A stretch of DNA of 64,000 nucleotides from Isoetes taiwanensis. Its lineage: Eukaryota > Streptophyta > Lycopodiopsida > Isoetales > Isoetaceae. A model generated the notes under the pieces. The model ran no database searches. It saw only the letters and a program-made list of their open reading frames with translations, and was not told the origin of the DNA. This document shows positions 1 through 58,506 of the stretch, piece by piece. The position numbers and the translations under genes were made by a program. The stretch covers positions 1,414,494 to 1,478,493 of the forward strand of contig JAJEKV010000047.1 of NCBI GenBank assembly GCA_021234155.1, written 5' to 3'. Each line of letters opens with the position of its first letter. Within the stretch, counting starts at the first letter, position 1.

Positions 1-1371
1 CTAGACCCTTTTTCCCCGACCTAGCACCTAAACCCTCATCCCGCACGCCAAACTCCGTTTGAAAGCATCGATTCGTCGTAGCCCTAGCACAGAGCAAAGA
101 GTACCGGAAGGTGTGTATGATCGTAGAGGGAGCAAGTCTTGAGCCACGTCAAGGAGCATGGAGACATGGGGATGGGAGGAAGCGCCTCGGAGGAGGTAGG
201 TTGAGTAGAGTCCATGTTAGTTCATCCGGGAGTTAGCACTCCGGATGGGTTAGTATTTCGTAGCTAGAGTAGAGCCACCCTAGATCCTTTTGTTGAACAT
301 CTTGAACCCTAATCAATGAACCCTAACTAATAGTTAGATATGTATGATTAGGTTAAGATGTTCATATGATATTGTTCATGATGATTATGGGATGATGGTT
401 GATCATGTTTGTTCCTCTTGTGTTGGGAAGGGGGTAGAGACCTAGGGCCATATGTAGTATGTTCCTAGTATAGATCCCTTAGTTCCTATTAGATTGCGGC
501 TTTGTGTGCATAGGAACCCACCGGGCTACTCACGGAGGCTATGATGTGACTCAGCACTACACAACGGGGCTAGAGGCAAATGGAGGGAGGATCCTGCCGA
601 GTGGGGGGCTACGGGGGATCCCATAGTGAGCTAGGCTTATGGTCGGTCACCTGTGGGCGGGCATGGGTCCGAACACCTCCCGGGCGAAGGTGTTGCCCCG
701 CCTCTCAAGAGTTGCAAGTGCCGCTTGGCTCTTGTTTTGGGGGTTGATCAGTTAATCGTGTGTCGTCCACGATTCTCTAGCCGCCCGTGGAGCCTCTAGA
801 CCGGGAAGGGGAGATGCAACCCTTCCTACCTCGACGGACTAGGAGATGCAACCTGGAGTAGTCGGATGGGTGATGCCATGGGATTGCGATCCAGGAAGGT
901 CGAGTCATGCGAGCCTGATCTAGCCCATCCGCAAAGTATGTGAGGGGGCGGATGGAGTGGTCAACCCTAGCCATTTGTCTTATGCCAGCCCCGCCATTGT
1001 TATGACTCCTATCGCTCTATCTTGAGGCCTATGGGTGGGTCGACTTCCTTATGTGTCGATCCACGGGTAGGGAGCTCTCACGTTTTATGGTATGTGGCTA
1101 TGTTCTTTGCACCTTTGGATATGTGATGGACTACCCTTCGAGGTAGTATTTGTATTGTTGATGCTAGTTCTCGACATGTTTATCGCCCGCTTCATTTGTT
1201 ATAGGAGCCCATAGGGAAGGGCACGCCAAGACACCTCCCAGGTGTCCTCCCCCACTAGGGTCACCTTAGAGTCGCGGGTAGGCCGGAGGGCCTTTGTCGC
1301 TACCGCTGAGCCGGATGGGGGATTTCTCGCCGAGTGTACTACCGGCGCTGTATATTTAGCAGGGCGTCACA
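1..1371 (+). repeat. 5' LTR of the chromovirus, truncated at window start
   Basis: The sequence matches 11525-12890 along its whole length, with many small indels. It ends in CGTCACA at 1365-1371, the inverted complement of the TGTGACG that opens the 3' LTR at 11264. The primer-binding site follows directly. No open frame of note lies inside; the short frames are not conserved in the sister LTR. Confidence 0.93.
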
Positions 1372-1372
1372 A

Positions 1373-1384
1373 TGGTATCAGGCA
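1373..1384 (+). promoter_or_regulatory. Primer-binding site, initiator tRNA-Met type
   Basis: TGGTATCAGGCA begins two bases after the LTR end. Its first eight bases match the complement of the 3' end of plant initiator tRNA-Met, the usual primer for these elements. Confidence 0.85.
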
Positions 1385-1951
1385 TCGATGTTCTTGGTTG
1401 ACCGTGAACTAGCAATCGACCATAACCTTGAAAGTAGTCTAACAAGCTTATAGGGGTGTGAAATAAAATTTCCACCATCGAACCTCGAAAAATAAGGGAA
1501 AAAATTTTCTCTTAGGTAGTGGGTCCCAAATTAGCTTAAGTGTTAGACGAAGAAATGAATAAGTCGAATTCATCCTCTAGTAAATTGGTGTGGAAATTAT
1601 GTATCTGCGCATCAAATTTCACATAAAAATGGGTCAAGAATCATGCCAATCGGAGACCGAGAGTGAAAATGGCGAATCCATAATTAGCACATCAAACCAT
1701 TAGGAAATTCGAAAATTTAAAGTATAATACAAAATTAATACAAAATTAATATATACATTAATAATTAAATAATTACTAAATATGGTGTAATTAATAAGGG
1801 AGACTATAATAAATAGGGGTAATTATGGTGGGAGAATATTCCTAGGGACCCTCCTTTTTAAATATCTGACACCTCATTCTCTCTCTCCAACCCTTCACCT
1901 CCACCTCTCTCTTGCTCAGCCTTACGTCACCCATTTCTTGAACCACAAGAC
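1385..1951 (+). other. Retrotransposon leader, no gene seen
   Basis: This is an AT-rich untranslated leader between the primer site and the H3-like start codon. It ends in a pyrimidine-rich stretch (about 1870-1920) before ATG 1952. A related leader, with a shared poly-A/poly-T core, follows the LTR at 37338, showing the same family. No coding signal was found. Confidence 0.6.
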
Positions 1952-3065
1952 ATGGCACGCACCAAGCAAACCTACAGGAAGACTGGCCCTAGGCCCACCC
2001 TCTCCATGGCGCAGTGCCAGGGGGCATGTCAAGAAGGTCCCGAGCACCTTAACCGGCCAGGAAAAGGAGAGGAGGAGCTTCCCTCCAAAGAAGCGGCCGC
2101 TGACACCTATCATGACGCCAAGAGGACGACTTAGCACCGAAAAGAAGCAGCCTCTTCATCTACGGGTACCCAGAGAACCCATGAGTCCCACGATTTTGGG
2201 CCCTCGACGACACCGAGGTCGAGGAACAAAGTTGAAGAACGGTGTGGGTGGAGTAAAGAAAGCAAAGACCCAACTCAAGAGGTGTGCCCTTCAAAGACCT
2301 AAGAAGAAGGGCAAGGAAAAAAGTTGCCGAAAGGGCCTAAGAGAAGGCTGCTAGGAAGAAGAGGGAGCGCGAGAGGGAGCTCAAAGCGGCGTGAAAGAAG
2401 GACAAGAGAAGAAACGACCGCCTCAAGGGGACCGGCCGTTATTGAAGAGCATCGGGAAGAGGAGGAGGCCCGGAAGGGGACGGGCGAGAGGAGGAGGAGG
2501 AGAGATCGATCCCCGACGCCGCGCCACCCTACCCTGGTGGGCCGTAACCACTAAAAGTGGTGAAGAAGGTAGGGAAGCCCGGGCATTGGGGCTCGAAGGC
2601 CCGATCGCCAATTCAAGCGAAAAATGGCGGCATACACAAGGAGTACCTCCGTCGTTGGACGAGGTACAACGATTGGTATTGCCCGTCAAGAGGTGTCTGT
2701 GGCCGTGGAGGGCGGTAGGGCAAGAAAAATCAGCCGGCCACCCCCACCTAGACCGAAAACCCAAAGGGTTCACCACGGGCCGAACGATTATTATGCGCCC
2801 GGGTGTTTAGGAGATCAAGCACTTCCAAATGTGCACAAATCTCCTCATAAGGAAGGCCGCCGAGCGTCTCCTTAGGAAGTCATCGCGAGGAGTTAGGACC
2901 GATTATAGGATCACCCCTCGCGTCCGGGCTGCGAAGAGGTCGCCAGCTGAAGCCCGAGCTGGTGCGGCTCTTTGAGGAAGGGGAATTGCCATCCATGCTA
3001 AGAGAGTCACCCTTATGCCAAAGGACATTCACTTAGCACGGAGGATTCGCAGGGAGAGGCCCTAG
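1952..3065 (+). pseudogene. Histone H3-like gene carried by the chromovirus, frameshifted
   Basis: ATG 1952 opens with MARTKQTYRKTG, the H3 tail with R2, T3, K4, Q5, T6, R8 and K9 kept, A7 replaced by Y and S10 missing. The first frame stops at 2132-2134. Other frames continue as a long lysine/arginine-rich stretch to about 2795, far longer than the roughly 40-residue tail of ordinary H3. The histone fold follows: MRPGV at 2793-2807, a TAG at 2808, EIKHFQ (alphaN) from 2811, NLLIRKA (alpha1), RTDYRI (loop 1 region), LVRLFEEG in a neighbouring frame at 2959-2982, then HAKRVTLMPKDIHLARRI and the TAG at 3063. The C-terminal 24 residues match canonical H3 at about 20 positions. They are not CENH3-like, which would have KKD and a different end. 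Two compensating shifts surround LVRLFEEG. Role (inference): a captured histone packaged with or expressed by the element. This copy cannot make an intact protein as read. Confidence 0.88.
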
Positions 3066-4359
3066 GCCTCAAATTTTGTAAATTTTGTTAGAAAAGTAAA
3101 ATTGCCATGTAATTGTGCTTCTTGTTAATATAAAAGTATTTCCCTCTGTAATTAGGAAAAAAAATGTTGTATGCTTGAAATTTAGGAAATAGAACCTAAT
3201 TGTAGTAGAATTCTTCATAGCACTCTCAGAAATATCCTAGAAATCATGACTACAACAAAATTTTGGCAAAAAAATCATCAAAAAAGCAAAAATTTGGGCC
3301 AACCGGGTGAGACCGCGCCAATGGCTTCTGCGTCCCCGACGCGGGCGCGTTCCGCGCGGACTCACCCGACTGCCCCCAAAAACATGCTTTTAGATGTCAG
3401 TTCTGCTCAAAATAAGTTGCTAGTTAGCTTAGAATCGGCCCAATTAGCCATGTTAGCATCTTGAAATTCCCAAAAATGACCAAAAATTGGCCCAAAATAG
3501 GCCAACCGGGTGAGACCGCGCCAAACGCGTCTGCGTCCGCGACGCGGAGGCCATCCGCGCGGACTCACCCGGGTCAGCCCATCTTCGACCCAAATTAGCC
3601 AAATTAAATGGAACAAACCGCCATGTAGTGTTTCTTGCTTTGCTTTGCTTAGATTTGCACTTCATGGTAGCTCAATTGGACACCCGAGCCATAGAACCAA
3701 GGTCTTCCCCATCTAGGAACCTTTTGCATGAATCCGAGGTCAACCATAGTCTATAAAAGGGCCTCATTTGTCATTTTCCCTTCCATTTAATCTGCCCTGA
3801 CCACTTAGGCGATTTTCGACTCCTTACTGATCCTTGCAAGCCATTTTTACGTGACCCCTTCTTTTGCTCAATGGCCCAGCAACTTTGAGAGATGGTACAA
3901 TGTCGCGAAGCCATATCCATCGGCTCCGCGGACCAAGCCTTCTCGTGTTTGACCACTTGTTTGATCTTCATGCAACTCGTCTAGAACACCATACTATCTG
4001 AGATATCATGTGCCAATATGACCAACGTGTCCCCGCCTTGGGAAGTTAGACTACCCCCTAGGGAGGGAATTGGGTTTCTCTTGAGACACTCACCCAAGCC
4101 TTAGGTCGAGAGATGGCGGGGATCCAAAGGCAAGAAGCGACTATGGGATAGGACTAGGACCATGCCAGATTACATGACTGCGGAGCACATAATAGGCATA
4201 GGTACCTTTCATCTCGAGCGGCCCTTGCCCTCTTCATGCATTATAAGTCAATCAACAAAGTAGGGGAACCTTCCGTTCAGCCCTTAGACTTAGCTCCACT
4301 TGATACCCCGTAGGGGCCCGTGAGCAGATCCTCAATATAGAATCCTCCGTATGAACACC
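3066..4359 (+). other. Non-coding spacer with two GC-rich hairpin modules
   Basis: No gene is recognisable. The distinctive content is a pair of related modules at about 3296-3376 and 3500-3577. Each opens with GGGTGAGACCGCG and closes with CGCGCGGACTCACCCG, so each can fold on itself. Both sit in AT-rich DNA containing repeated short phrases such as 'caaaaattgggcc'. The rest (3590-4359) shows no coding pattern or known domain. Confidence 0.55.
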
Positions 4360-5365
4360 ATGGCACGACGCCGGGGCACCAATTCTGCAGATAGGCGAAG
4401 ACTACGAGCAACTAGGGGAGCAAAACCGTGAGTGGGAGAGCAGAGAGGCGACAAGAATGCAGAGGTACATGTCGCGCACGACGGCGACATCGGAAGAGCC
4501 ACCGGAGCCCGGTTGGCATCCACGGCTCTGTCGCCGAGATAGTCATCGACGGAGAGGAGTACATTCTAGCAAATGACATCCTCAACTTGTCATACCGCCA
4601 GAGCGGGGACTTGAATCGGCGAACTTCTAGGCATGATAGCACATGGGAAAAGCACGGACCTCATCGACTATTCATACCGGGGAGATTCCAAGGGAGCCGG
4701 GTGAGAGACATTCTTATGCCGGGAGACAAATAACCGACATAGCGGCCTATCGGCCAGATAAGGGAAATCTATCGACGGCAGGAGCCTGTCATTTCGAGGA
4801 GGAGTTCCAGCGAGCACTTTGTACAAACCGGGGAGGGGCCCAAGCCTCAAGCAGAGCGAGTTCGAGCGGGAGCATGAGGGAAGGGTCCAAGAGCATCAAC
4901 TTGGACAATGCAACCAGCATGTGGAGAGACCATGAAGACCTTATGGCAAAAGATGCCTACGGGTGGGAGCGGCTCAAAGGAAAGGCGCGGGATCGCGAGG
5001 CGCGAGGTAAGGGCATGGCACTCACGCTACTATCTTCCACCCCTCGGCAAAAGGGCAAATGGTAGTCTTCCACAAGGAGTTCAGTCAAGGGGAAGAATCG
5101 ATGGCACTTCTCATAGCACTCTCGGGCCGGGCGGCATGAAGATATCGCCCATGAAGATCCGTCATCCTTTTAAGAGGTGCATGGCGCTCCATTGCCTCGA
5201 CTTCCGCTAGGGGCCACCTCGGGGATGCATCACTTTCGTAGTAGCAAAGAATCGCACGAGAACTCCCGAACCCGGAAATGGCGAGCACTCGAGGGGGATC
5301 GACAAGGAACATCCTGCGCAACCTCGGCAAAGGCCTCCGATTCGAGATGTGAAGAATTTCTTTAG
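4360..5365 (+). pseudogene. Unrecognised degraded coding region between H3-like gene and gag
   Basis: ATG 4360 opens an arginine-rich start (MARRRGTNSADRRRLRATRG) that stops after 23 codons. Overlapping frames carry on: 4428-4733 (ARRRHRKSHRSP, then EIVIDGEEYILANDILNLSY), 4643-5065 and 4908-5210. The composition is GC-rich and unlike the AT-rich flanks, as expected of former coding DNA. I do not recognise a family. A basic gag N-terminus or another captured gene are both possible. Several frameshifts would be needed to join the frames, so no product is claimed. Confidence 0.4.
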
Positions 5366-5940: not shown

Positions 5941-6032
5941 TAGCTCATCGGACACACTTCCGGTCATGGCGGTTCTAGCTCGAAAGTGAGTCCCACAGCC
6001 TCCACAGGTAAGAGCCGTGGCAAGGAAGGAAG

Positions 6033-7526
6033 ATGATTATCAAAAGAAAGTTGACGGCCGCTATGAGCAATGTGTGGAAGACTAGGAAGTTGGGTCAGTT
6101 CGAGGGAAGGACGGTCGGTATGGAGGCAGAAGCCTGGCTTGACGAGATGGAAGAGTTCGGCAACTCTTATGGCATGAAGGATAAGGACATAGGGAAAGTT
6201 GCTACAGCAAACTTGATAGGAGCAGCTAGAATCTGGTGGAAAGGCTATGCGAAGTCTAACAAGCTCAAAAGGAACGGTTGCAGATTCAAGACCCAGCAAA
6301 GCTTTTTTCGCAGACATTATGTGCCTAGGTCACATACTAGCAGGCAGATCCAGCAGTTCTATAGATTGAACCAGGGTACATTGTCAGTTGCAAAGTATAC
6401 AGAGGAATTTATGCGACTTAGACTCCATGTTCCTGGAGTGTCGGAAAGGCAAGCGGTCGAGACTTACATTGAGGGATTGAACAGCAATATCAAAAGGCTA
6501 GTCCGAGCAATCAACCCTAAGTCAGTGGCAGAAGCCGAGGATAAAGCCATAAGTTTGGAAGAAGCTCCAGCAACGCCAGGTGAGAGACAATCGGCCTTCA
6601 AAGGAAGGTCAACGGGACAGTACCAAGGGCAGCAACAGAGTAAGCAATCAGCAACCACGCCATCAGGAGGCCAGCAGCAAGGGAGAGCTCAGGGTAAGAA
6701 CTTTGGGGACCGTAAGCCGCAGAATGCATCAGGGGGCAGCATGTTAAAGCGTATTCTAGACAGCCTGACGAAAGAGAAGAGACAGGAATGTATTGAGAAG
6801 AAGCTTTGTTTCAGGTGCTTCCAGCCAGGGCACCGAACCCATGATTGCCCATTCGTCATGCAGGCAGCCTTGGCAGAACTTATGGATTGGGATTCACCAA
6901 CTGAAGCAGATGAGGACGACGACCAGCATGAGGCCCAGGACTTCATAGATGGTGAGTGCCACATTTGTGCAAACATTGAGTCAGGTGACATTGAAAGTCA
7001 GTCAACAGTCATTGCGGCTGAGGGGATCATAGATAGCAGTCCATATCTAGTATTGATAGATACAGGTAGCTCTCATAACTTTGCCTCTCCTAGGCTGGCT
7101 GCCCTAATGAAGAACAATGTATTGAAGTCTAAGCCAAGGCCAGTTGCTATGGCAAACGGCGCCATTCGGCACACTAAGGGGAGAAGGATCACATTCGACA
7201 TAGACCTTAGTGGAAGTAAGTGGCCGATGGGGGCAGAGGTCATGGAGATTGGAAGGTATGACCTTATAGTAGGAATGGAGTTCCTAAAGCCAGCAAAAGC
7301 CATGATCGACTGCGACCGCAATGAAGTCGCCATGACAGCACCGGACGGCACCAAATTCATAGTGAGAGGTAAGAAGACAGCTTCTTCTATGCAGTGTATT
7401 TCTTTGAAGCAGTTAAGGAAAAGTATAGAAAGAAATAAGGTGGATTACATCTTGAGATTGGAGGCAATTGAGCCCAATAAGCAGGATGGAAACGATCAAA
7501 AGGGAAAGCAATTGCCCAAGCGGTAG
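6033..7526 (+). CDS. gag: Gag-protease polyprotein of the chromovirus
   Basis: A 497-residue open frame. Residues about 15-160 are a retrotransposon Gag capsid domain (WLDEMEEF, AARIWWKGY, QQFYRLNQGTLSVAKYTEEF). A Gln/Ser/Gly-rich linker follows (about 190-230). Then comes one CCHC zinc knuckle, CFRCFQPGHRTHDC (about 265-278), for RNA binding. The aspartic protease has its active site in LVLIDTGSSHNF (about 335-346) and a later YDLIVGMEFL flap/hydrophobic segment. The frame ends at TAG 7524, upstream of RT. In relatives gag-pol is often one frame, so this stop is probably a mutation. It is the longest intact frame of the element; an earlier in-frame start than 6033 cannot be excluded. Confidence 0.9.
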   Translation: MIIKRKLTAAMSNVWKTRKLGQFEGRTVGMEAEAWLDEMEEFGNSYGMKDKDIGKVATANLIGAARIWWKGYAKSNKLKRNGCRFKTQQSFFRRHYVPRSHTSRQIQQFYRLNQGTLSVAKYTEEFMRLRLHVPGVSERQAVETYIEGLNSNIKRLVRAINPKSVAEAEDKAISLEEAPATPGERQSAFKGRSTGQYQGQQQSKQSATTPSGGQQQGRAQGKNFGDRKPQNASGGSMLKRILDSLTKEKRQECIEKKLCFRCFQPGHRTHDCPFVMQAALAELMDWDSPTEADEDDDQHEAQDFIDGECHICANIESGDIESQSTVIAAEGIIDSSPYLVLIDTGSSHNFASPRLAALMKNNVLKSKPRPVAMANGAIRHTKGRRITFDIDLSGSKWPMGAEVMEIGRYDLIVGMEFLKPAKAMIDCDRNEVAMTAPDGTKFIVRGKKTASSMQCISLKQLRKSIERNKVDYILRLEAIEPNKQDGNDQKGKQLPKR

Positions 7527-9109
7527 CTAGGCTCATTTCGTAATTCAAGGATGTATTTCCGGATGAGATCCCGAAGCTACCACCTTATAGGGGTATGGAG
7601 TGTGAGATCACATTAGCACGGATGCTAAGCCTACCAGCAAAGGCACCATACGAGGGATGAGCACAGGAGTTGATTGAGCTCAAGAAGCAACTCCGGGAAT
7701 TGCTTGAGCTCGGTTTTATTAGAGCAAGTGTGTCTCCTTTTGAAGCACCCATACTCTTTCGTGAAGAAGAAAGATGGCGGTTTAAGAATGTGCATAGACT
7801 ATCGCCCACTCAACAAAAGCAGACGATAAAGAACAAGTATGCTTTGCCAAGGGCGATGATTTAATGGACCAGCTCCAAGGAGCAAAGGTATTCTCCAAGA
7901 TTGATTTGAGGTCGTGGTACCACCAAATAAGAATAAAAGAAGAGGATATCCATAAGACCGCCTTCTAAAGCGGTATGGTCACTTTGAGTTTACAAGAATG
8001 CCCTTTGGATTGTCGAGCGCTCAAGCAACTTTTATGCGCCTCATGAACGGCGTCTTGAGGGGATTTTCTAGATGAGTTTGTCATTGTTTTCTTCGACGAC
8101 ATTCTAGTCTGACAAGTCCATCGAAGATCATAGTCAAAGATTTGAGAAGGGTGTTAGAAAAGTTGAGGCGGCATCGTTTGTATGGAAAGCTCTCCAAATG
8201 CCACTTTGCTACTGAAAGAGTGGAGTACTTGGGCCATGTCATATCGGCGGAAGGAATCTCCACCGACCCCGCAAAGATCGAAGCGGTAGTAGATTGGCCA
8301 GCTCCAAAGAATGTGGCGGAAGTAAGAAGCTTTCTAGGTCTGGCAGGTTATTACAGAAAGTTCGTGAAGGACTTCGCTAAGTGGGTGTCCCCTTTGATGG
8401 ACCTCACTAAGAGTGTTAAGGTGAAAGATTGGAGAACACATTGGTTAGAAAATGTTCAAGCTTCATTTGAAAAGCTTAAGGAGGCCTTAACAACGACACC
8501 GATTACTGGATTACGCCAGATCCAGACAAGGACAAGATAGTAGCAACAGATGCAAGTAAGATAGCAACAGGTGGAGTCCTTATGCAAGAAGGAAGGGTAA
8601 TAGCTTATGATTCCAAAAAGTTGAACGACACCGAGCAGCGCTATCCAACCCATGATCAGGAACTTCTAGCTATTGTCAGGGCTCTTCGTATTTGGAGGCA
8701 TTATTTGCTTGGGAGGAAATTTCAGTTAGATACTGATCACCAGAGCCTCCAATACATTTTTACCCAACCACTCCTGAATCTGAGGCAAAGGAGGTGGATG
8801 GAATTCCTAAAAGAGTATGACTTTGAGATTGCTTATAAGCCATGTAAGTTGAATGTGGTCGCCGATGCTCTTTCTAGAAGACCTCTTGAAACCAGAATTC
8901 ATTGTAATGCTATATCAACTCTTTCGAGCGGGTATGGCAAGAAAATTGAGGAGACTTTACCATCCGATGGTGATTTCAAGGAGGTATGGGAAAGCCTTTC
9001 TAGAGAGGCTAGAACAGATAAGGAACGAGAAGCCTTCAAGCATTATAAGAAGGAAGGCAACTTGTTGTATCATAAGCATAAGTTGTGTGTGCCCGAATCA
9101 TGGGGGTAA
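7527..9109 (+). pseudogene. pol: Reverse transcriptase and RNase H of the chromovirus, frameshifted
   Basis: RT pieces appear in order in different frames: [20 protein letters not shown] (about 7670), [13 protein letters not shown] (about 7897), the catalytic FFDDIL box (about 8090, in place of the commoner YxDD), and the thumb/connection [17 protein letters not shown] to [11 protein letters not shown] (8142-8400). RNase H follows: VATDASK (about 8545) with the first catalytic Asp, then the 8582-9109 frame with YDSKKLNDTEQRYPTHDQELLAIV, LDTDHQSLQYIF and the end motif ADALSRR. In-frame stops and small indels, for example near 7660, 7863, 7967, 8070-8120 and 8535, make it non-functional. Confidence 0.9.
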
Positions 9110-10434
9110 GGAAGCTAATCCTCCATGACACACACAACAGCCCAATAAAGGGGCATCACGGGGTTTATGAAGACCTACTTCAAGATTCAAGTAGCTACTT
9201 CTGGTAGGGAATGAAGAAGCGGATAGCAAGATATATTCGCTGAAAGTGTCGGTTGTGCCAAACAAACCAAAGCGAGCAGCTTCAATTCAGGTGCCTTGGA
9301 ACCTCTAGCAGTGCCGAATGCGAAGTGGGAAGTGGTAAGTATGGATTTTATCACAGGACTCCCCAAGACTCTTCGAGGCAAGGATGCATTGATGGTCGTA
9401 GTAGACAAATTATCTAAGATGGCACATTTTGTGCCTTGTAGAACTCTTGACACAAAGATTAGATCTTTGCCAAGCTATTTGTGAAGGAGATTTTTTAGGC
9501 TCCATGGCATGCCTCGGGGAGATAATATCCGATAGAGATTCCAATTATGAGTGCCTTTTGGCGGGGATCTCTTCAAAGACCATTCAGAAGCTCTCCATGA
9601 GCCGCGACTTATCATCCCCAAACAGATGGTCAGACGGAGAGGACGAATCGAATCATTGAAGATATGCTTAGAAGCTTTGTGTGGAATAAGCAGTCCAAGT
9701 GGGAGGAGTACATCCACTTGGTGGAATTCGCCTACAATAGTGCCAAACAGGAGTCATCTCAGATGTCTCCTTTCATGGTAAATTACGGGTACCAGTGCTT
9801 AACCCCGGACACTTGGCACAATCCCGTGTCAAAGGTTGAGGTGTCCCAACAAATGCTAGGAGATATGCAGCAGTTGGTGGAAGAAGTGAGGGGTTACCTC
9901 CTAGCAGCAAGAAGTCGGCAGAAGAGTGTAGCCGACAAGCACAGGACCGTAAGAGAGTTCAAAGTAGGCGATAGCGTGTGGTTGAAGATCAAGGTCAAGC
10001 AAGCTAAGCTTCGGATTGGGAGTTGCAAGAAGCTTGCCCCTAGGTGGGCTGGTCCGTTCAAGATTTTGGAGAGAGTGGGCTCCCAAGCCTACAAGTTGGA
10101 TCTTCCGGCCCATCTCAAAGTTCACAAGGTTTTCCACGTAAGTTTATTAAAAAGGCACAATCCTAACCCTGAGGAGGTTTTGGATACTCCAACTTTGTTG
10201 GAAATGACGGAAGAGCAAGTGGAAATCGTGCCTGAGTTACTTCTTGATAAGTCATTCAAGAAGACTAGGAGGTCTCAGTTCCTCCAGTATTTGGTCAAGT
10301 GGAAACACTTGCCAGTGGAAGACGCGACGTGGGTATTAAAGCAAGATTTGGAGAAGCAATACCCAGAGTTCATGAAGGAGTTTGATGGGCGAGTCGTCTC
10401 CGACCTGGTCGACCCCGACTCGCCAGGAGGTTAG
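9110..10434 (+). pseudogene. pol: Integrase with C-terminal chromodomain, frameshifted in the core
   Basis: The zinc-binding N-terminus is visible as a histidine pair near 9123-9165 and CRLCQTN near 9249. Catalytic core: SMDFITGLPKT (about 9340, first Asp), VVVDKLSKMAHF, ISDRDSNYE (about 9525, second Asp), and a NRWSDGE-type remnant near 9625 where the Glu motif should be. The 9664-10434 frame (256 residues) is intact. It holds the end of the core, the SH3-like region (LAPRWAGPFKILERVG, HKVFHVSLLKRH) and a chromodomain at about 10250-10400 (LQYLVKWKHLPVEDATWVL). Chromodomains of this class bind methylated histone H3 tails and steer integration to heterochromatin. The tryptophans of LVKW and ATW are present. 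The upstream core is split over at least three frames. Confidence 0.9.
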
Positions 10435-11263: not shown

Positions 11264-12897
11264 TGTGACGTTCCAGGGGAATATATGCTATATATACGTA
11301 TATTCCTGGACCCGTCACCATACAAGTCTACCGGAGTAGCCTTGTATGCATTGGAAAGTGGCAAGGGGTGCACATCTAAGTTAATTGTTTAACTTAGATA
11401 ACCTTAGGATAAGACCCATTTCCACATGGCCTTATCCTATTGGGCAACCGCCACACGGCCTCATCCTAGTGGTGCCACGTGGCATCCCATGTGGACCCAC
11501 ACCTATATTAGCTCTAACCCTAACCCTAGACCCTTTTTCCCTGACCTAGCACCTAAACCCTCATCCACGCGCCCGAAACTCCGTTTCGAGCATCGTTCGT
11601 CGTAGCTCAGCACGGAGGCGGCAGCCCCGGAAGGTGTGTATGATCGTGAGAGGGAGCAAGTCTTGAGCCACGCCAAGGAGCATGGAGACGCCAGGGATGG
11701 GAGGAAGCGCTTCTGGAGGAGGTAGGTTGAGTAGAGTCCATGTTAGTTCATCTGGGAGTTAGCACTCCAGATGGGTTAGTATTTCGTAGCTAGAGTAGAG
11801 CCACCCTAGATCCTTTGTTGAACATCTTGAACCCTAATCAATGAACCCTAACTAATAGTTAGATATGTATGATTAGGTTAAGATGTTCATATGATATTGT
11901 TCATGATGATTATGGGATGATGGTTGATCATGTTTGTTCCTCTTGTGTTGGGAAGGGGGGTAGAGACCTAGGGCCATATGTAGTATGTTCCTAGTATAGA
12001 TCCCTTAGTTCCTATTAGATTGCGGCATGTGCATAGGAACCCACCGGGCTACGGAGGCTATGATGTGACTCAAAGACTACACAACGGGGCTAGAGGCAAT
12101 GGGCGGAGGGAGGATCCCGCCCGAGTGGGGGGCTCTGGGGATCCCATAGTGAGCTAGGCTTATGGTGGGTCACTTAGGTGTGGGCGGGCATGGGTCCCAC
12201 ACCTCCCGGGCGAAGGTGTTGCCCGCCTCTCAAGAGTTGCAAGTGCGGCTTGGCTCTTGTTTTGGGGGTTGATCAGGGTCTGAATCGTGTGTCGTCCACG
12301 ATTCTCTAGCCGCCCATGGAGCCTCTAGACCCAGGAAGGGAGATGCAACCCTTCCTACCTCGACCGGACCGGGGAGATGCAACCGGAGTAGTCCCGATGG
12401 TGATGCCATGGGATTGCGTATCCGGAAGGTCGAGTCATGCGAGCCTGATCTAGCCCATCCGCAAAGTATGCAAGGAGGGGCGGATGGAGTGGTCAACCCT
12501 AGCCATTGTCTTATGCCAGCCCCGCCATTGTTATGACTCGGTCCGCTCTATCTTGAGGCCTATCCGATTGATTCGACTTCCTTATGTGTGTCGATCCACG
12601 TGTAGGAGCTCTCACGTTTTATGGTATGTAGGCTATGTTCTTTGCACCTTTGGATATGTGATGGACTACCCTTCGAGGTAGTATTTGTATTGTTGATGCT
12701 AGTTCTGACATGTTTATCGCTTCCGCTGTTATAGGAGCCCATAGGGGAAGGGCACGCCAAGACACCTCCGTGTCCCCTCCCCGCACTAGGGTCACCTTTA
12801 GAGTGGGGTAGAGCCGGAGGGCCTTGGTGGGGTGTTGAGTAGGATGGGGGATTTCTCGCCGAGTGGCCGGCCCGCCAGATATTTAGCGGGAGTCGCG
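11264..12897 (+). repeat. 3' LTR of the chromovirus
   Basis: It begins TGTGACGTTCC after the polypurine tract and matches the 5' LTR base for base apart from substitutions and many small indels. The end is degraded: where the 5' LTR reads GGGCGTCACA, this copy reads GGGAGTCGCG at 12888-12897. Alternatively the LTR is cut at about 12883 by the Helitron end. Length is about 1630 bp. Confidence 0.88.
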
Positions 12898-12903
12898 TGA
12901 CTC
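12890..12903 (-). repeat. Candidate Helitron 3' terminal hairpin
   Basis: A perfect 5-bp stem with a 4-nt loop (GAGTC gcgt GACTC on the + strand) lies a few bases from TTAG, the complement of CTAA. Helitrons have such a hairpin shortly before CTRR. It could also be a chance palindrome in a mutated LTR end. Confidence 0.4.
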
Positions 12904-13195: not shown

Positions 13196-14551
13196 TTATC
13201 GAAGAAGTTCTTCATAAACAACATTTGTTGTTGTTAGAGATGTATTTTCTTTGCGCAATAGAATAAGAACGTCTTCTTTTCTTCTTATTCGTGTTAGTGC
13301 TGTGTATAATTGTCCATGCGCGAATACATCATTTATTAGGTCGAGCACGATCTTGTTTAGTGTCAAACCTTGACAACTATTGAATGTTGTGGAATATGCG
13401 AGCCTAAGAGGAAGCTGTCGGCGATGTATTGTCCAAGGTCTATTTTCTGGTTCATAGAAGAAGTCTACCCGATATATTGGATGTATTGTACCATTCTCTT
13501 TTGCTGTGCTGCAGATCACTTTAACCATAACAAACTTTTCATGAAGTGCTTCAATGATAACTCGAGCATTTTTTACTAAACCTTTTTCTCTGTCTAATGT
13601 TTTCATTATATGATAGATAGCACCAACTTTTAAATGCAGGTCATGATCTGGTATTTCTTGTGTAAAGTGCATTAATAAGTCTGGATTTGCATATGGATGA
13701 TCTTCTACGCGTCAATCGTCTTCTGTGATATGGTCTAAGCTGTAATATCGTTTTTCTTCCCTTTTCAGTAATGACATTACTCGTCGATTGAAATCATCAA
13801 TGTTGCGATTAAGTGGCGATAAGAAAGCTCGCTTCTCACATTCTGATGAGTTGGCTAGAGTCTCAGCTGGATAGAGAAAATGGATTGCATCGTCAAGGTT
13901 TGTAGTTGTTGCAAACATTGCGATAGAAACTAATGAATGTTTGAAATCTTCTCCTATTCGGTCAACGTAAGCAATCAGTTCTTTATCAGCTGCATTGCGA
14001 ACTGGTTGGTGCAACTTAAGAACATTGAAGCTATTCCATAATGAAGATGATTTTATTGACGCATTGATTGCGGCAGTTCTACCAGCTCCACGGACAATGG
14101 GAGCTACTTGTCTGAAATCGCCAGCTGCCACAATACATTTTCCACCAAATGGTTCTTTATTTCCACATAATTCTTGAAGAAGAGCATTTACCGCTGATAT
14201 GACAGCCTTGTTGGCCATGGAAAATTCATCCCATACTATTATGCTGCTTTGTATCAACAATTCTGCATAGCCAGATTTGTGGGTCATCATTGAATGAATA
14301 TTAATGTTATTTTCTAATACGGGTATCTGAAATAATGAGTGAGCTGTTCTGCCTCCAGGATACAATAGTGCAGCCAATGCCATTGTTCCACATGGTAAAG
14401 CTATCAAACCACGTGCTCTTACATATAAGCATAATGCATTCAGCAAATATATTTTCCCTGTACCTGCTTTGCCATCAACAAATGTTGGTGGTGTTGGTGT
14501 TTCTTTGTCTATCATTGCACATATCATGTCAAAAATTTTCTTCTGATTGAA
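13196..14551 (-). pseudogene. Helitron helicase domain (PIF1-like), one stop and one frameshift
   Basis: Read on the - strand, the frame 14527-13712 has Walker A as VDGKAGTGKIYLL (about 14445-14480), where the usual GKT/S is GKI. Walker B is IIVWDEFSM, followed by AAGDFRQVAPIV, the helicase motif with Q that marks PIF1 relatives. A TGA at 13712-13714 interrupts the frame. It then continues in the same frame to 13196 with the C-terminal motifs TTFNSCQGLTL and GQLYTALTRIRR (motifs V and VI). The start is joined to the Rep domain by a one-base shift in a T/A run at about 14535. The helicase would unwind DNA during rolling-circle transposition. The Walker A change and the stop suggest it is dead. 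Confidence 0.9.
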
Positions 14552-17531
14552 GTTTAGTGATGGTCAGATTTTTTAAGGTTTGCTGATATTTTTCTGTGTC
14601 TGCAAACTTTGACATTTCATTAATCAGATTTCTACTACTGTTTGGTTCTATTTGCAGCCCGAATGCAGTAATGTTTGTATCGTGCTGAACCAGTGTGTCA
14701 TTTATTAATTCTAAACATTCGTTATACGCTGAGCTATCATCATTCTGATATTTTTCAAACATGTCTCTTGCTAATGCAAACCGATATCTGTTCCACAAAT
14801 CCATCACCGGTGCTTGGTCCATTAGCAGCAATGTAAACAAAAATCGCAACTGTGAAGGGTTTAATGCTAATGCCACTGCTTCTTCCATGACTAGATCAGC
14901 TTGATTGCTTGCATCCGTTAACCCGAATGCTTCTGCTGCCTTTTGGTATGTCTCATATTCTACACCATTTATTGTTCCTGCATCAACCCAATCTCTGCAT
15001 GGTTTATGTAGAAGTATTTGCCGCAAGTAAAATGCTTCGCCTACATGAGGAAGCAGCAAACGAATGCGGCATACTAAGTTTTGATTAGCTCGCTTTCTTA
15101 TAATCTGTCCATCGTTTAGCTCAACATTATCATCGGGTTTTTTTGAACTTTCCTTGTTAGGAATGAGGACGTATGTCTCGTTATACTGTACATATGTCAT
15201 TTCATTAAACTCCGGGCGATTTGGTCTCAGGAAATACCTGTCCAACAATGATAACGATGGAGAGCACTTTCCTGTTCTTCCAAATTGCTGCTTATTTTGC
15301 CCTGGGAGATGCAGTGGAAGGCATCTTACAACAGGTGTTTTTTTTGTCATGTTATAACCTAGTATTCGCCATGCTGCTTCTGTTGCAGATAGGTATCGAG
15401 CGTCGAGATAATCATGAACCTCGTTGACCCGCTCTTTTTCTTGAATAGTTTTTTTCCCACTGGCATCTTTTTTTTGGAGCTGGTATTTGATAGAATCGAA
15501 ACCTTTATAAATGTAGCTATATACATATGAGAATATATGCACAGTTGATGCAATATCAACAGTTATATGACAATTCATTTTCTCCAACAGAAATTTATTG
15601 TAGGGTACGACGAATACATCATCTATGTGTCTTCTCCTATATTGCACATATCCTTTCTCATCAATATAGCTGCTCTCTACAATGGGTCGTGGAAATTTCC
15701 AGCAGCAAGTACCCTTTTCTGAACATCTAAAAGAATGATGGTGCACCATAAACTTTTCTACTTTCACACGTTCAGACACATCTGTTGGCAACTCGGCACA
15801 TATAATTTGGTCAATTACACTGATTGGAATATCTATTTCTGTTCGTAGGACCAAGTGTGCATGGGGCAAGCCTCTTTTTTGGAATCCTATAACATGTATT
15901 ATGTAAGAGATCGGGCCGAAGTACTCTTTGAGGAGTTTTTTTAGCTGATGTAGCCGACTGTGAAATGCTCGGCAAACAATTATTGGCAGATCTGCGCTTG
16001 TTTTTCCCTGGACAGTTTTCTCTCGAATTTCACACCAATCAGGATCGGTAGTCATTGTTATGAACAAAGTTGGATGACCCTTTGATCTTGCCAAAGCAAG
16101 AGCATCGGCAATCTGAGAAGTACACCATCGCCGACAACCCAGAAATGAAGACGGTAAAATAATGTCATCACCATTATCGTTATTATTATCCCCAAAATCA
16201 TCCCGGTTCATATGCTCTAATTTTTTATATCCTTCCGTGTATATATTGTTTAATCTTTCCTCTTCAACACGAGAGAACATGTCAACCAAGTATTCGCCAC
16301 AAAGCCGCCCTAATTGTGCGAATCTTGTTTCATGGAGTAATCGTTGTTTATACCACTGAATTTGAGACAATCCAAATTCGTTCTTTGGACTCCATCCTAT
16401 CGTTCCGTGTGGAAAAAATAGTGGATACTCTAATGTTTCATACAGTGGGTCCAAGATACTAATAAATATCGGTGAACCTTCATGTTTTAGCCAAAAGCCA
16501 ATCATTCTTGGTTCAATAGTTGTTGTGTTATTCACATCAGCTATGGCTGCTATTTCATCTTTTGCTGTTATACCACTGATGGTAAGCATCACATCTTTTC
16601 TATTCAGATTTCCAACATTCTTTAAAGCTCGTGCAAATGGGTTTACCTGGTCCAACATGCTAGCTATTTGAGATACCCATTCAAATTTAACGTTCTTTGA
16701 AGATGCCACATTATAACGTTCTGACTCATCATAAATATACCAATGCAAAGGGTTAATCTCTTCTAGTGTTGGGAGCAATCTATGATATGTTCTGCCCATA
16801 ATGCTGACACATGATGGAGCTTCTAGATGAATGAATGATCCGTTTACACCAAGCACGCTAAAACAGAATAAGTTGTTTATTTTCCGTGAATCTCTGGAAA
16901 ATTTGGCAGTCGAATATAATGTTTCTATGTTTCCTGGTAGTTTAGGGAGTGCCAACTTCCATTTACCATTGTTACAACAAAACCCTTCTCTCTCTGTTTT
17001 TAATAGTTTCAGTCCACAATCATTATATCTCTTATCCCACTTAGGATTGATCTCTCCCTTTCTTATGTTTTTATTCATTTTTAAGATCAACTTCTCCCAA
17101 TAGTTCTCCATTCTCTTATAACTTTCTCTGTCCTCGGTATTTTTCTCATCGTTTGCTTCATATTTCATTTCTTCTTGATTCTGTTTGTTGTTTATTTCTT
17201 TCATCTCATATGTCTTTCTTGGACGACCCCTTTTACGAATACTGCTCGTAATACTGTCATTTGTGAATACTCCAGTGTCATCTAAATCACGATTCCATGA
17301 TTTACTGTCTCTTATTCTATGATGACGTCTGGTCAACAGATTATTTGTCGTAACAATCTGCGATTCAATTTTTTTAGGACGCCCTCTTTTGCATATGCTG
17401 CTCTCAGTATCGACTTTCTTTTCTATTTTGGGTCTTTTATGTTTTATCTCACTACCGGTTAGCTGCTCAGCATGTCTTTCGATTCCTTTCCTTTTTCCTG
17501 TTCTATGGATACTCATGGTTTCATGATCCAT
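14529..17531 (-). CDS. Helitron Rep (HUH nuclease) domain, 1000 codons open
   Basis: This long intact frame reads from ATG 17531. Residues 1-130 are basic and contain two AT-hook-like motifs, CKRGRPKK and RKRGRPRK, which may bind AT-rich DNA. A CCxxG zinc-type stretch (FCCNNGKWKL, about 180-190) is typical of Helitron proteins. The helicase-like N region holds FITMTTDPDW (about 490). The HUH nuclease signature is GFQKRGLPHAHLVL (about 550-563), and the catalytic tyrosine region is YSYIYKGFD (about 665-675), with both tyrosines present. The protein would nick and join DNA in rolling-circle transposition. The frame stops just before the helicase because of a one-base shift, so the usual RepHel fusion is broken. 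Confidence 0.92.
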   Translation of the reverse strand: MDHETMSIHRTGKRKGIERHAEQLTGSEIKHKRPKIEKKVDTESSICKRGRPKKIESQIVTTNNLLTRRHHRIRDSKSWNRDLDDTGVFTNDSITSSIRKRGRPRKTYEMKEINNKQNQEEMKYEANDEKNTEDRESYKRMENYWEKLILKMNKNIRKGEINPKWDKRYNDCGLKLLKTEREGFCCNNGKWKLALPKLPGNIETLYSTAKFSRDSRKINNLFCFSVLGVNGSFIHLEAPSCVSIMGRTYHRLLPTLEEINPLHWYIYDESERYNVASSKNVKFEWVSQIASMLDQVNPFARALKNVGNLNRKDVMLTISGITAKDEIAAIADVNNTTTIEPRMIGFWLKHEGSPIFISILDPLYETLEYPLFFPHGTIGWSPKNEFGLSQIQWYKQRLLHETRFAQLGRLCGEYLVDMFSRVEEERLNNIYTEGYKKLEHMNRDDFGDNNNDNGDDIILPSSFLGCRRWCTSQIADALALARSKGHPTLFITMTTDPDWCEIREKTVQGKTSADLPIIVCRAFHSRLHQLKKLLKEYFGPISYIIHVIGFQKRGLPHAHLVLRTEIDIPISVIDQIICAELPTDVSERVKVEKFMVHHHSFRCSEKGTCCWKFPRPIVESSYIDEKGYVQYRRRHIDDVFVVPYNKFLLEKMNCHITVDIASTVHIFSYVYSYIYKGFDSIKYQLQKKDASGKKTIQEKERVNEVHDYLDARYLSATEAAWRILGYNMTKKTPVVRCLPLHLPGQNKQQFGRTGKCSPSLSLLDRYFLRPNRPEFNEMTYVQYNETYVLIPNKESSKKPDDNVELNDGQIIRKRANQNLVCRIRLLLPHVGEAFYLRQILLHKPCRDWVDAGTINGVEYETYQKAAEAFGLTDASNQADLVMEEAVALALNPSQLRFLFTLLLMDQAPVMDLWNRYRFALARDMFEKYQNDDSSAYNECLELINDTLVQHDTNITAFGLQIEPNSSRNLINEMSKFADTEKYQQTLKNLTITKLQSEENF

Positions 17532-19916
17532 TATCCTATTTACGATGACTTTATTCAGACAATCATGCTGTAAATATAATTTGATTACACTAAAAAGGAA
17601 AATGTTATAGAAGATAGAAACTACTCACTTTGATCGTCTCCTTCAAGTTTTACATTTATTTATATCCTCCTGTGTATGTACTCCCAACGCCAGCTGCTGA
17701 ATACAAAGACAAAATTTTTTATCCTATTTCCATTTAGATCAAATGCCCTAACCTGATTTTTTAATGTTTATATCTATGCATAACCTTATTTGATTCAACA
17801 TCAGCTGCTAAATACAAAGGTAAAAAATCTCACTCTGTACTCATTTGCCCCCTCCCCGTCTTCCCAATGTACTTTAGATGACATTACTATGTAGAATAAT
17901 ATTACCAGTTTTCAGAGTTTACAAAATGTAATAAGGTCCATCACGCTATTAATCTGTTGCAATGGAATTTATTAAAAAATACTTATATGTATACGTCTAA
18001 GCTGATAGAGCTCCAATCTAAGAAGACTTTACTCATGTAAGAACACTTCTCTGTGGTCTTGAAGCTCGAACAGCACCTCTCGTAGGCTTGTTGAGATCAT
18101 TACGGGAGGGTAATGGATAATGGGACTCGTTATGCCCCCGTCCGACATTAACCTCAATTTGTACTTGTGATTATGTATATAAGCGTGCGGTATGTCGGCA
18201 TCCTTATTGCTACTAAGGTTTTTCCCGAAAACCCTTGGTGAGGGTTTTTAATCCTCGTAGTAATCGCTGCTTTGCTCTTCTTCGGACTCTTTTGTACTTG
18301 GGTCCCATAGGCCAGTTGGTCTCCGTGGACGATAAAATCATATTCTATTCTATTCTATTCTGAAACGAAAATTATACCATATAATATAGAAGTATTATCA
18401 AGAATGCTTACAATAGTGTAAACAATCGTTTAGTAGAGCACAATGGGCATTTGTGGCATCAACACAAAATGCCATCTATGGATCGCTATGAAACATTTTT
18501 CAGTTTATCATGCTCCCTTAAAAACGTCAACGTATTCTAATTGTTAAACCAAAGTTAATCCATAGATACTCAGCAGTTGATCATGTTTCCTTTATAAAGA
18601 TAACTACAGTCATAGCTGCACTACTTTAAATATGCAATTTGGGATTTATCCTTTGTAACTATCAGAATGGTGCCTCTCACCATTCTAACTTACTGTCTGA
18701 TCTGCCAGTACTGTGGTCCCAACCAAAATTTGAATAACTAGCCATTCAATCTTCTCAGCCACTAATTTCATTTGTTGCAACTTGCTGTTCACACAGTTAA
18801 TTTCACAAATCTTAGCAATGGCTATAAAAAACATAGGCTACTCACTTTGGCAGCATCTTTCGACCTTTATGTTTATTTATGCTCTTTTGCACACGTCTCC
18901 TCAACAACAACTGCAAAGTAGAAACATACATCATTTTAGCTTGGATACTAAACCTGTCTGAACATCTTTTCGTTCTTTCAATATTGGTATAATGAAAAAT
19001 ACAAAAACTTAGCCTTAATATTTTGAAAAATAACCACCTTAAAGACGCCTAACTACCGTTCTAACTTACCGTCTCATCTGCCAGTGTAGTAGTCCCAACT
19101 AGAATCTGAATAACTAACTATTATTGAATTTTTTTTGTGGCATCAACACAAAACGGTTATTATATGCCCCTTTACACACGTCTCTCCAAAAGCAACTGTA
19201 AGATAAAAATATCTTAGCTTACACATTAAGCATCTATCAGCATCTCTCTACTCTTTCAATAAATCCCGCGTGCAAATCCCACAAAACATTTGGCATAATC
19301 AAGAATATAAAAACTTAGCATCGGAAAAGGAAAAACCTTAGAACAACACGAATTTGAGCGAATTGCCGATTCCTTTAATTTCTCCTATCCGCGCACCTCC
19401 ACTAAATCTTCACGGATTTCCAGCTTTCACCTCCCAAAACGACAAAAAAACCTGAAAACAACGAATCTTAACCTAAAACCCTGGTTCCGGCCACTTTGGA
19501 TCCCCTTCACCTTATTGCAATTGACGAATCCACATTCTTCCCTAATCGCACCCTGTCGTCCACGTGGAATTTTTTGCCCCTACACACATCATCTTTTTTC
19601 TACCATGTTTTAGAGCATTATGATTGATTTAAATGAGCATTAATGTTGTACTTATTTCTGAAAATTGACTATAATCATATGACTTTTATATATTTAACTT
19701 AACTCTTATGTTTTAAATTCTTATGAATTAAATGATTTGCTGGAATTTAACGATGTTAATACAATGTTTATGCGTTAAATATTGCGAGTGCTTTTTTATG
19801 TTTAAGTATTTTAAGGAGAAAAAAAAATTAAGTCCGCACACTGTTACTTTTACACTAAAAACAATGCACATGAAAGTCTAAGTTTTATTATGCCTTGCAA
19901 TTTGAAAGTCCACTTT
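17532..19916. other. Non-coding stretch with diverged duplications; no gene
   Basis: No reading frame of interest. Several phrases recur in order: 'ctactcacttt' at about 17626 and 18838, 'gtggcatcaacacaaaa' at 18453 and 19137, 'attctaacttactgtc'/'gttctaacttaccgtc' at 18683 and 19056, and 'acacgtctcc' at 18890 and 19175. This suggests old tandem duplication of a 400-500 bp unit, perhaps the 5' non-coding part of the Helitron. 'GTGAGTAG' on the - strand at the 'ctactcac' sites resembles a splice donor. About 18045-18360 looks like a separate insert ending in (ATTCT)n. Confidence 0.45.
18200..18360 (+). repeat. Retroelement-like terminal segment with GGTTTTTCCCGAAAACCC motif
   Basis: AAGGTTTTTCCCGAAAACCC then GGGTTTTTAATCC closely resembles the sequence at 56722-56767, pointing to a shared repeat family. 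It ends in a run of ATTCT pentamers (18343-18359). Such G/T-rich stretches are common in LTRs and LINE tails of plants. The class is undetermined. Confidence 0.4.
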
Positions 19917-20867: not shown

Positions 20868-21683
<816 letters not shown>

Positions 21684-56977: not shown

Positions 56978-58506
56978 CTAGAATTTTGGTGTCTTTCCAT
57001 CAGCTTCAAGCTTCACCTTGTATATCCATCTATTTCCCACAACATTTTTGTTTTCAGGCAGGTCTACTACATCATACGTATGAGTTTCATTGAATGCATC
57101 CATTTCATTTTGCATTGCTTTCTTCCACTTATCTGCCTCTGGTGAATGAATGGCTTCTTCAAAGTTTTGTGGTACATTTGCTTCTGTCACTGTTAATGCT
57201 TTTATATTTGTCTCTTCTACATTCTCAGCAAGTCTCAAGCTTTTTCCATCTAGTCTTCTATAATTTTCAACTTCAGTCCCCAGCTCATCTCTTAACCTTT
57301 GAGCTTCTGTTCTTCTTTTTCTCACAACTTCATACCTTTTAATTTCAGTCGGAATTTGCTCCTCATTCATCACCTTTGAGCTGTCACTTTGTGATTCAAC
57401 GTCGTCATCATCACTTAGGTACTCCATCATTGATTTCTCCCCATCTTTATCACTCTGTTTTACTGTTGCTATGTCAGCAGCTTTATTATGCTCATTGGGT
57501 TCTGCCATCATTGATTTCTCCCAATCTTTATTATTCCGTTTTGCTGATGCTATGTCAGCAACTATACTATGCTCAGTTTCTGATACGATCAGTTTTGGCT
57601 TGTATAATACTTCTTCTTTGAATGTGACATCTCTGCTCGTGATAATTTTCCTTCTATTTACATCATATAATCTATACCCTTTTGAATTTCTATCATATCC
57701 AACCATATAGGTTATACAAGCTTTGTCATCTAGTTTGACTCTCAATTCGTTTGGTATATGTGCTAATGCCAAACATCCATAGGCTTTCAGGTGATTATAC
57801 GATGGTTTCTTCCCAGACCATAGTCTTTCTGGAATATCTCCATTTAAGCTTGAAGTCGGAAGCATATTTTGAACATACACTGCTGTCTTAACAGCCTCCT
57901 CCCATAAGCAATTTGGTAGTCCACTATTCTTGAGCATTGCTCTCACTGCATCCAGAATAGTTTTATTTTTCCGTTCTGCCACGCCATTTTGCTGTGGTGT
58001 GTGACTACAAGTGTATTGCCGCTTAATTCCTTTCTCAACGCAATATCTAATAAATCTGCCAGACATATACTCTCCTCCTCTATCTGATCTGACACATTTA
58101 ATAGTTTTGCCTGTTTCATTTTCAACCTCTGCCGCAAAAGCCTTGAAAGCATCAAATGCTAAGTTTTTGGTTTTTAGACAATAACAAACTGTTTTTCTAC
58201 TGTATTCATCTATAAATGTAATAAAAAACACTTACCCGACATGCTAGTGATGTTCAATGGACTGCACAAATCCGTATGCACCAATTCGAGTACCCTTTTT
58301 GCTCGTTTCTTTGATTTCTTGAACGGCATCCTGCAACGTTTGCCCAACATGCATCCAATGCAAATTAAGGCATCATTTGTTTTATCAGAAATGCTTATTA
58401 ATCCTTCTTTTTCCATTGACTCCATATTTTTCTCACTTGTATGACATAGTCTTTCATGCCAGATCCTCTTAGATGGTACTGTCAACAAATTTGCACTTGC
58501 ACACAT
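56978..58506 (-). CDS. pol: Copia GAG-pre-integrase and integrase
   Basis: On the - strand: WHERLCHTSEKNMESM and CIGCMLGKRCRMPF (about 58300-58460) form the HHCC zinc-binding region. One small shift at about 58215-58230 leads to the 417-residue frame 58231-56978. This has the core ITFIDEYSRKTVCYCLKTKN (first Asp), CVRSDRGGEYMSGRF (second Asp) and THTPQQNGVAE-like (SHTPQQNGVAERKNKTILD, Glu). GKKPSYNHLKAYGCLA and YMVGYDRNSKGYRLYD follow. The acidic linker is internally duplicated: IASAKRNNKDWEKSMM and IATVKQSDKDGEKSMM. It ends at NRWIYKVKLEADG where RT should begin. It inserts cDNA into the genome. Confidence 0.9.

Follow-up and report, generated by a model that had tools for sequence, protein, structure and literature searches.

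A histone H3-like gene between primer-binding site and gag in Ty3/gypsy chromoviruses of Isoetes taiwanensis, with a possible role in host chromatin

Hosts silence transposons by modification of histone tails, H3K9 foremost, and a retrotransposon that carries a histone H3 gene raises the question of whose gene it is and what it might do there. Such a case is found in a stretch of 64,000 nucleotides of the lycophyte Isoetes taiwanensis (contig JAJEKV010000047.1, positions 1,414,494 to 1,478,493 of the forward strand; the whole stretch is called the window below), the first 12.9 kb of which are one Ty3/gypsy chromovirus with an H3-like open reading frame (ORF1, 1952-3065) between the primer-binding site (PBS) and gag. 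Judged from its pattern of substitution, ORF1 is a maintained element gene, kept by selection while the lineage split into several families. We hold, with slightly better than even confidence, that it is the retrotransposon's own gene for an H3 variant fused to element sequence, kept by selection, and that its product would enter host chromatin, most likely resisting silencing. Evenly balanced, in our view, are the chances of the fuller claim that an element-encoded H3 variant with a module of unknown fold, under strong purifying selection across families, builds non-standard nucleosomes and is the first known core histone of a retroelement.

The element is recognised as a Ty3/gypsy chromovirus by its pair of long terminal repeats (LTRs), its PBS, the order gag, protease, reverse transcriptase, RNase H and integrase (the last seen by its C-terminal domains), and a chromodomain. 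The interval from PBS to gag spans about 4.6 kb and contains ORF1 and a second frame, ORF2. Its parts are the following:

1..1372, plus strand: 5' LTR, direct repeats with 11526-~12900 at a spacing of 11523-11535, 1347 aligned columns
1373..1390, plus strand: PBS TGGTATCAGGC (read from the sequence), which we take to be of the tRNA-iMet type; the counterpart in the related element L055 is TGGTATCAGAGCC
1855..1866, plus strand: TATA-like TTTTTAAATATC upstream of ORF1 (read from the sequence), a putative promoter
1952..3065, plus strand: ORF1, with H3 N-terminus, charged linker and H3 fold; frames broken in the window copy, open in L010, L032, L042 and L047
2976..3062, plus strand: C-terminal piece of H3, by itself above the Pfam Histone cut-off (PF00125, 34.2 bits, E 3.5e-8)
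3297..3571, plus strand: two 72-nt G+C-rich repeats (3297-3368 and 3500-3571) in the spacer that separates ORF1 from ORF2, 89% alike
3871..5160 (end approximate), plus strand: ORF2-like region, broken in the window; its counterpart in L047 is a 427-residue open frame
6012..7526, plus strand: gag and protease, a 504-residue open frame (PF03732 3.6e-14, PF19259 1.3e-12, PF08284 2.1e-9)
7542..9109, plus strand: reverse transcriptase and RNase H (8480-9109), broken frames (PF17917 3.7e-35, PF17919 4.3e-23, PF00078 weak, 0.01)
9601..10434, plus strand: C-terminal part of integrase with chromodomain (PF00385 4.5e-11, 42.9 bits against a cut-off of 25.1)
11526..12900 (end approximate), plus strand: 3' LTR, direct repeats with the 5' LTR

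The frame at 1952 reads MARTKQTYRKTGPRPT, with the H3 start MARTKQT, and the 3' part of 1952-3065 encodes EIKHFQMCTNLLIRKA ... AIHAKRVTLMPKDIHLARRIRRERP. An earlier note on this DNA had read H3 segments in order from MARTKQT to the H3 C-terminus; their presence and order stand, while a single open frame in the window copy does not. EIKHFQMCTNLLIRKAAERLLRK and AIHAKRVTLMPKDIHLARRIRRERP share one frame, which a TGA interrupts between the two and which ends in a stop at 3063-3065, a TAG stands immediately ahead of EIKHFQ, and LVRLFEEG lies in a different frame from both. PF00125 matches the last 29 residues alone (cut-off 26.4), and at E <= 1 Pfam gave nothing for the window pieces 1952-2134, 2811-2972 and 2851-3036. 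The call of a histone is thus borne out by the profile in the window and also in open copies elsewhere in the genome (101 and 142-150 bits, see below). The note had further placed the segment inside the chromovirus, between the PBS (1373) and gag (6012), as cargo or an element gene; the window LTRs do enclose it and its copies align from PBS to gag, and a neighbouring host gene is rejected on these grounds.

The genome was searched over 1,658,258,908 bases in 1110 contigs. Matches to a 1151-base stretch of the window, 74-85% identical, lie in at least 39 other places, which is more than chance would give and a lower bound, as 40 of the 1223 first-look candidates were scored. Alignment of these copies with the window runs from PBS to gag. 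In 60-base bins, the mean number aligned is 36-39 of the 39 over the leader and ORF1, and 29-31 where gag begins. ORF1 is fully open in four of them (L010, L032, L042, L047; 364-374 residues) and there encodes, in this order, MARTKQT, a charged linker and an H3 fold; in 18, the fold reads through from one fixed end motif to the other. A MARTKQT start is found in 29 of the 39, in 19 cases as MARTKQTYR and in three as MARTKQTARK, which equals canonical H3 residues 1-9 after the methionine. The tail of this family, class I hereafter, thus comprises about H3 residues 1-9, and the long linker behind them is rich in serine and in charged residues. Its fold is 67-68% identical to host H3, and PF00125 scores 101 bits in L042. 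With the whole class I protein as query, 2831 of 6531 candidates matched at E <= 1e-3; among the best 120 of these 2831, the local alignments cover 24-44% of the query (by eye) and no homologue of the linker appears. Ten fetched matches are concatenations of H3, one with H2A.

A genome search with the Histone profile yielded a second family. From 8705 first-look candidates the best 150 were scored, all above the cut-off, a selection that could not include class I. Rows 1-15 begin their match at profile position 2, and the five of them that were fetched are plain H3 (L053, L059-L062). The other 21 fetched rows belong to class II, in which a long N-terminal part precedes an altered H3 tail and the H3 fold. 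The H3-carrying elements thus fall into class I and class II, the latter with subfamilies IIa, IIb and IIc. Five class II proteins read at full length (L048-L052; L052 was used in computations without its methionine) have 411-459 residues, including an N-terminal module of about 300 residues, and sixteen read around the fold (L063-L078) comprise, by eye, 13 IIa, one IIb and two IIc. The class II fold shares 84-87% identity with host H3 and scores 142-150 bits with PF00125 in L048, L049, L051 and L052 (cut-off 26.4); H3 chains in PDB match the element proteins with E 9.3e-31 and 8.5e-51. For the N-terminal module no homologue was found at E <= 1 with one sequence as query (1629 candidates scored, 5.8 billion proteins) or with five (7995 candidates sharing most words), none in PDB at E <= 1, and no tblastn relative among 135 pattern matches in viral contigs.

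Gypsy gag or pol sequence adjoins the class II ORF in all three places whose flanks were read. Around L048 (IIb), in L058, ORF1 comes first, then ORF2, then a third ORF, and last gag together with protease and part of integrase; this gag region is 47% identical to that of the window over 462 residues. The third ORF lies between ORF2 and gag:

L058:1743-2237: third ORF of class IIb, with a relative in L056 (1714-2328) and no Pfam family found

The neighbourhood of L051 (IIa) holds LTR stretches 95-97% identical, ORF2 and a 952-residue frame from protease to integrase. In C101 (L054, L055) a unit with the H3 ORF and a unit with gag-pol look like an LTR-internal-LTR-internal-LTR array, perhaps from unequal recombination. 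Near L049 (IIc) there are open frames for part of ORF2 and for the third ORF, and 2.4 kb match L058 at 70%, into its gag; no LTR pair was seen within the pieces fetched. ORF2 is common to the L048, L051 and L049 neighbourhoods at 46-50% identity. The ORF2s and the third ORF gave nothing in Pfam except one match far below the cut-off, and one ORF2 had no PDB match at E <= 1.

Codons for CAIHAKRVT, in any synonymous form, occur in 2090 places (1052 + 1038), and the reversed pattern in none. The class I signature EGNLCAIHA was counted in 839 places (418 + 421) and the class II signature DANLCAIHA in 1269 (651 + 618), each against a control of 0. All three figures number exact motifs rather than intact genes or whole elements, canonical H3 genes having no count of their own. 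Among 100 listed CAIHAKRVT places, 26 have the exact class I signature, 53 that of class II and 21 neither, and two of these 21 (C97, C105:150574) are canonical H3 rows of the Histone-profile list. Every fifth of the 100 was inspected by eye, a non-random sample since the listing takes small contigs first: seven places are class I, ten clearly class II, two degenerate and class II-like and one unclear, with no canonical H3.

Selection was estimated by the Nei-Gojobori method as the ratio of nonsynonymous to synonymous substitution (dN/dS) between open copies. In class I (six pairs of four copies) the fold has 0.04-0.20, the middle part 0.09-0.24 and the stretch of the first 30 columns 0.12-0.33; within class II subfamilies (two pairs) the corresponding values are 0.07-0.10, 0.17-0.25 and 0.10-0.11. 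When class II subfamilies are compared with one another (three pairs), dN in the fold is 0.08-0.12, with 47-59 of 63 synonymous sites changed. The ratio of means over the 18 open class I folds is 0.147, biased low as they were picked by fixed end motifs. Constraint extends to the non-histone parts, so that the entire fusion protein, several times as large as H3, seems to be of importance. Of the two possibilities that the earlier note had left standing, an element gene rather than passive cargo is supported, because four of the 39 frames are open and dN/dS in their fold is low. A one-off captured pseudogene is rejected, the segment being common to many copies and its fold bearing signs of selection.

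The broken frames of the window copy may stem from decay or from assembly error. Its two LTRs differ by a Kimura two-parameter distance of 0.090, and the comparison counts 57 transitions, 57 transversions and 58 gapped columns. The share of differing columns is 0.9% where local G+C is <0.4, about 10-11% at 0.4-0.6 and 29.7% at >=0.7, and these columns are clustered beyond any of 1000 permutations. Leader and ORF1 were compared in 35 sequences, the window and 34 of the 39 copies (the others were too short for the cut-off): the leader of a broken copy may be as much as 99.8% identical to that of another copy while the adjacent ORF1 stands at 85.6% (L012/L015), and this gap widens with a shorter open frame (Spearman -0.64, p 3e-5). 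The breaks of the window copy are probably in large part an assembly artefact, and as their cause we infer, as the best reading, base-calling or assembly error in G+C-rich, perhaps methylated DNA. According to the available part of its description, the assembly was made from nanopore reads called with Guppy 3.1, with Illumina reads for correction (PMC8566536). Two observations count against assembly error: the open copy L047 likewise has an ORF1 less conserved than its leader (0.798 versus 0.922), so faster change of ORF1 plays a part in the gap, and the broken L031 and L036 have ORF1s 98% identical to more open copies. If the breaks are assembly errors, the share of open copies is underestimated; frameshifts in G+C-rich stretches of this assembly call for care in other findings too.

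What the protein might do was approached by comparing the surfaces of nine element proteins with host H3. In fold residues 110-131, which we take to be the H3-H3 four-helix bundle of the tetramer and the contact surface for ASF1, at most three of 22 positions differ, a conservation that would be permissive, and only permissive, for assembly with H4. Residues 86-90, presumably those of chaperone choice, differ from host H3 in each class, and IIc has H87, like host H3.3. The alphaN sequence, which in H3 contacts DNA, is nearly unchanged in class II and lost in class I. Neither class has the tail of a core H3, about 38 residues with K4, K9, K14, K27 and K36 in context; in class II the altered tail lies behind the module of about 300 residues, and IIb and IIc keep an internal (A/P)RKSG.

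On the reading that we favour, the ORF1 protein would be made from the element and enter the nucleus, where its conserved H3 fold would pair with host H4 and host H3 chaperones would load it into chromatin. Because the normal tail is replaced in class II, and cut to about residues 1-9 plus the linker in class I, nucleosomes with this protein would carry the element module in place of that tail, and silencing enzymes could not use the ORF1 tail in the normal way. The benefit would most likely be that element chromatin, or a freshly made copy, becomes harder to silence via H3-tail marks; steering of integration by the element module on chromatin is a close second. This suggests elements that act on the very chromatin by which they are normally silenced.

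Several points weigh against a conserved gene with such a role. Only four of the 39 class I copies are fully open, an unbroken fold was seen by eye in only three of the 20 sampled places (L084, L094, L098), and the restriction to open copies lowers dN/dS. From one class II subfamily to another the N-terminal module evolves rapidly (dN 0.63-0.68, synonymous sites saturated), and class I, lacking alphaN, may not sit in a normal nucleosome. In C101 the H3 ORF and gag-pol occupy adjacent units of the LTR array and not one internal region, so that the autonomy of class IIa is unproven. Finally, on the question of one capture or two, ORF2 of class I and class II show weak homology (23% over 120 residues, E 0.001), and the N-terminal parts of the two classes could not be aligned (hhalign E 0.28).

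The alternative that survives best, held tentatively, is a chromatin tether: the H3 fold and N-terminal module would link the pre-integration complex to H3 chaperones or replicating chromatin, guiding integration and nuclear retention in concert with the chromodomain integrase. It fits the conserved fold and chaperone surfaces and a lineage that already has a chromodomain. In the accessible part of a study of plant chromoviruses, group II chromodomains show no interaction with H3 methyl-K9 and apparently have an unknown heterochromatin partner (PMC2832683), which would agree with a tether should the chromodomain of the window element belong to that group. A short peptide would suffice for this purpose, however, and a whole fold with its tetramer surface is not needed. 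Less probable, and rather doubtful, is a tail decoy, in which the free ARTKQT(A/Y)RK of class I would occupy readers or writers of H3K4 and H3K9 and weaken silencing, as viral histone mimics do, the fold serving mainly for nuclear import or stability. The 29 MARTKQT starts, three of them MARTKQTARK, speak for it, but the class II proteins seen are without an ARTKQT start and only IIb and IIc have the internal (A/P)RKSG; moreover, in class I four of six pairs show stronger constraint on the fold than on the first 30 columns, and the other two show about equal or weaker constraint on it.

Very improbable is a neutral passenger, that is, a host H3 copy captured once and spread without function like the captured gene fragments of other plant LTR elements. 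The broken window copy, the few open class I frames (4/39) and the breaks in most of the 20 sampled places would agree with it; yet in open copies dN/dS stays at 0.04-0.20 for the fold and 0.09-0.25 for the middle part, several subfamilies exist with synonymous sites near saturation between those of class II, and breaks are concentrated where assembly error is likely. Equally remote is capture of a centromeric H3 (CENH3) with which the element would make centromere-like chromatin for itself, which we reject as the main explanation on the length of loop 1: class I does have the CENH3-like residues EIKHFQ and TNLLI and groups on a long branch with CENH3/CENP-A sequences of species other than the host in a quick tree (support 0.575-0.655), but long-branch attraction is likely in that tree, loop 1 has the length of H3 without the insertion of the CENH3 sequences compared, and identity is 53-59% to two plant CENH3 against 67-68% to host H3.

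Among known systems, chromoviruses share with the window element the LTRs, PBS, gag-protease, reverse transcriptase-RNase H, integrase end and chromodomain, but not the roughly 4.6 kb with the H3 fusion gene and ORF2 ahead of gag. Nearest to ORF1 in position is the upstream ORF1 of Ogre/Tat elements, which is not known to encode a histone. A survey of lycophyte chromoviruses by polymerase chain reaction, Isoetes histrix included, mentions no such gene in the portion of text available (PMC2864245). The additional ORFs (aORFs) of plant LTR elements likewise are extra conserved ORFs beside gag-pol in many copies; their commoner place is the interval from pol to the 3' LTR, in a report that does not use the word histone (PMC7264820), whereas ORF1 precedes gag and its origin from a core histone is plain. 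Single viral histones, such as bracovirus H4 and the singlet H3 of large DNA viruses, also represent one host-derived histone with a changed tail in a mobile genome. They are thought to join host nucleosomes, in a review that uses neither the word retrotransposon nor the word retrovirus (PMC9145170). Encoding by the element is shared, while deposition in host chromatin is here only proposed, from sequence; the viral carriers are DNA viruses or derivatives, whereas here the gene belongs to a retrotransposon, occurs in very many places and is fused to a long module. VANDAL elements are a DNA transposon family whose VANC would share the anti-silencing purpose, if the mechanism we prefer is right, and in whose action no histone is involved to our knowledge. 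VANCs are described as sequence-specific anti-silencing proteins in the parts available of PMC10398659 and PMC5735166.

No histone gene in a retrotransposon was found described in the literature searched (titles and beginnings of abstracts, mostly excluding subscription papers), in keeping with the impression of novelty in the earlier note. Papers on gene capture by plant transposable elements (PMC13317346) and on capture in bdelloids (PMC5408684) do not contain the word histone. Captured genes and viral histones are known kinds, and, as far as the searches go, no retrotransposon lineage has been described with a core histone among its conserved genes. If our proposal is true, a retroelement that supplies a tail-changed H3 acts on the substrate of silencing and not on its enzymes; it would provide a natural test of the H3 tail and of the chaperone-choice residues in lycophyte chromatin, and a case of a histone evolving under the selection of a parasite. 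From the Isoetes repeat library, according to the available part of its description, repeats with BLASTx matches to plant proteins were removed (PMC8566536). Such filtering could drop H3-bearing elements, leaving them unmasked and annotated as genes, and pipelines can miss the family.

Further features of the window element concern its expression and relatives. Eight ATGs lie at 1388-1825 and none between 1828 and 1951; a genomic RNA would meet these eight before 1952 and one starting near 1885, behind the TATA-like box, none, which hints at an internal promoter. Around that box (1853-1912) mean identity is 94.6% over 38 copies. The spacer repeats each have ACCGGGTGAG near the start and CTCACCCG at the end and could be a structure of the element RNA. 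No Pfam family was found for the 427-residue ORF2 frame of L047. The window pol has 70% nucleotide identity to that of the related L054, in which reverse transcriptase is strong and the integrase core (rve) reaches 31.7 bits, below the cut-off of 32.6.

Outside the element, the minus strand of 13196-17624 has ORFs of 171, 283 and 1031 residues with the look of a Helitron replicase-helicase (by eye only), and two ORFs on the minus strand of 56978-59600 look, again only by eye, like Ty1/copia gag-pol. A polyubiquitin gene with three 228-bp repeats lies at 20868-21683.
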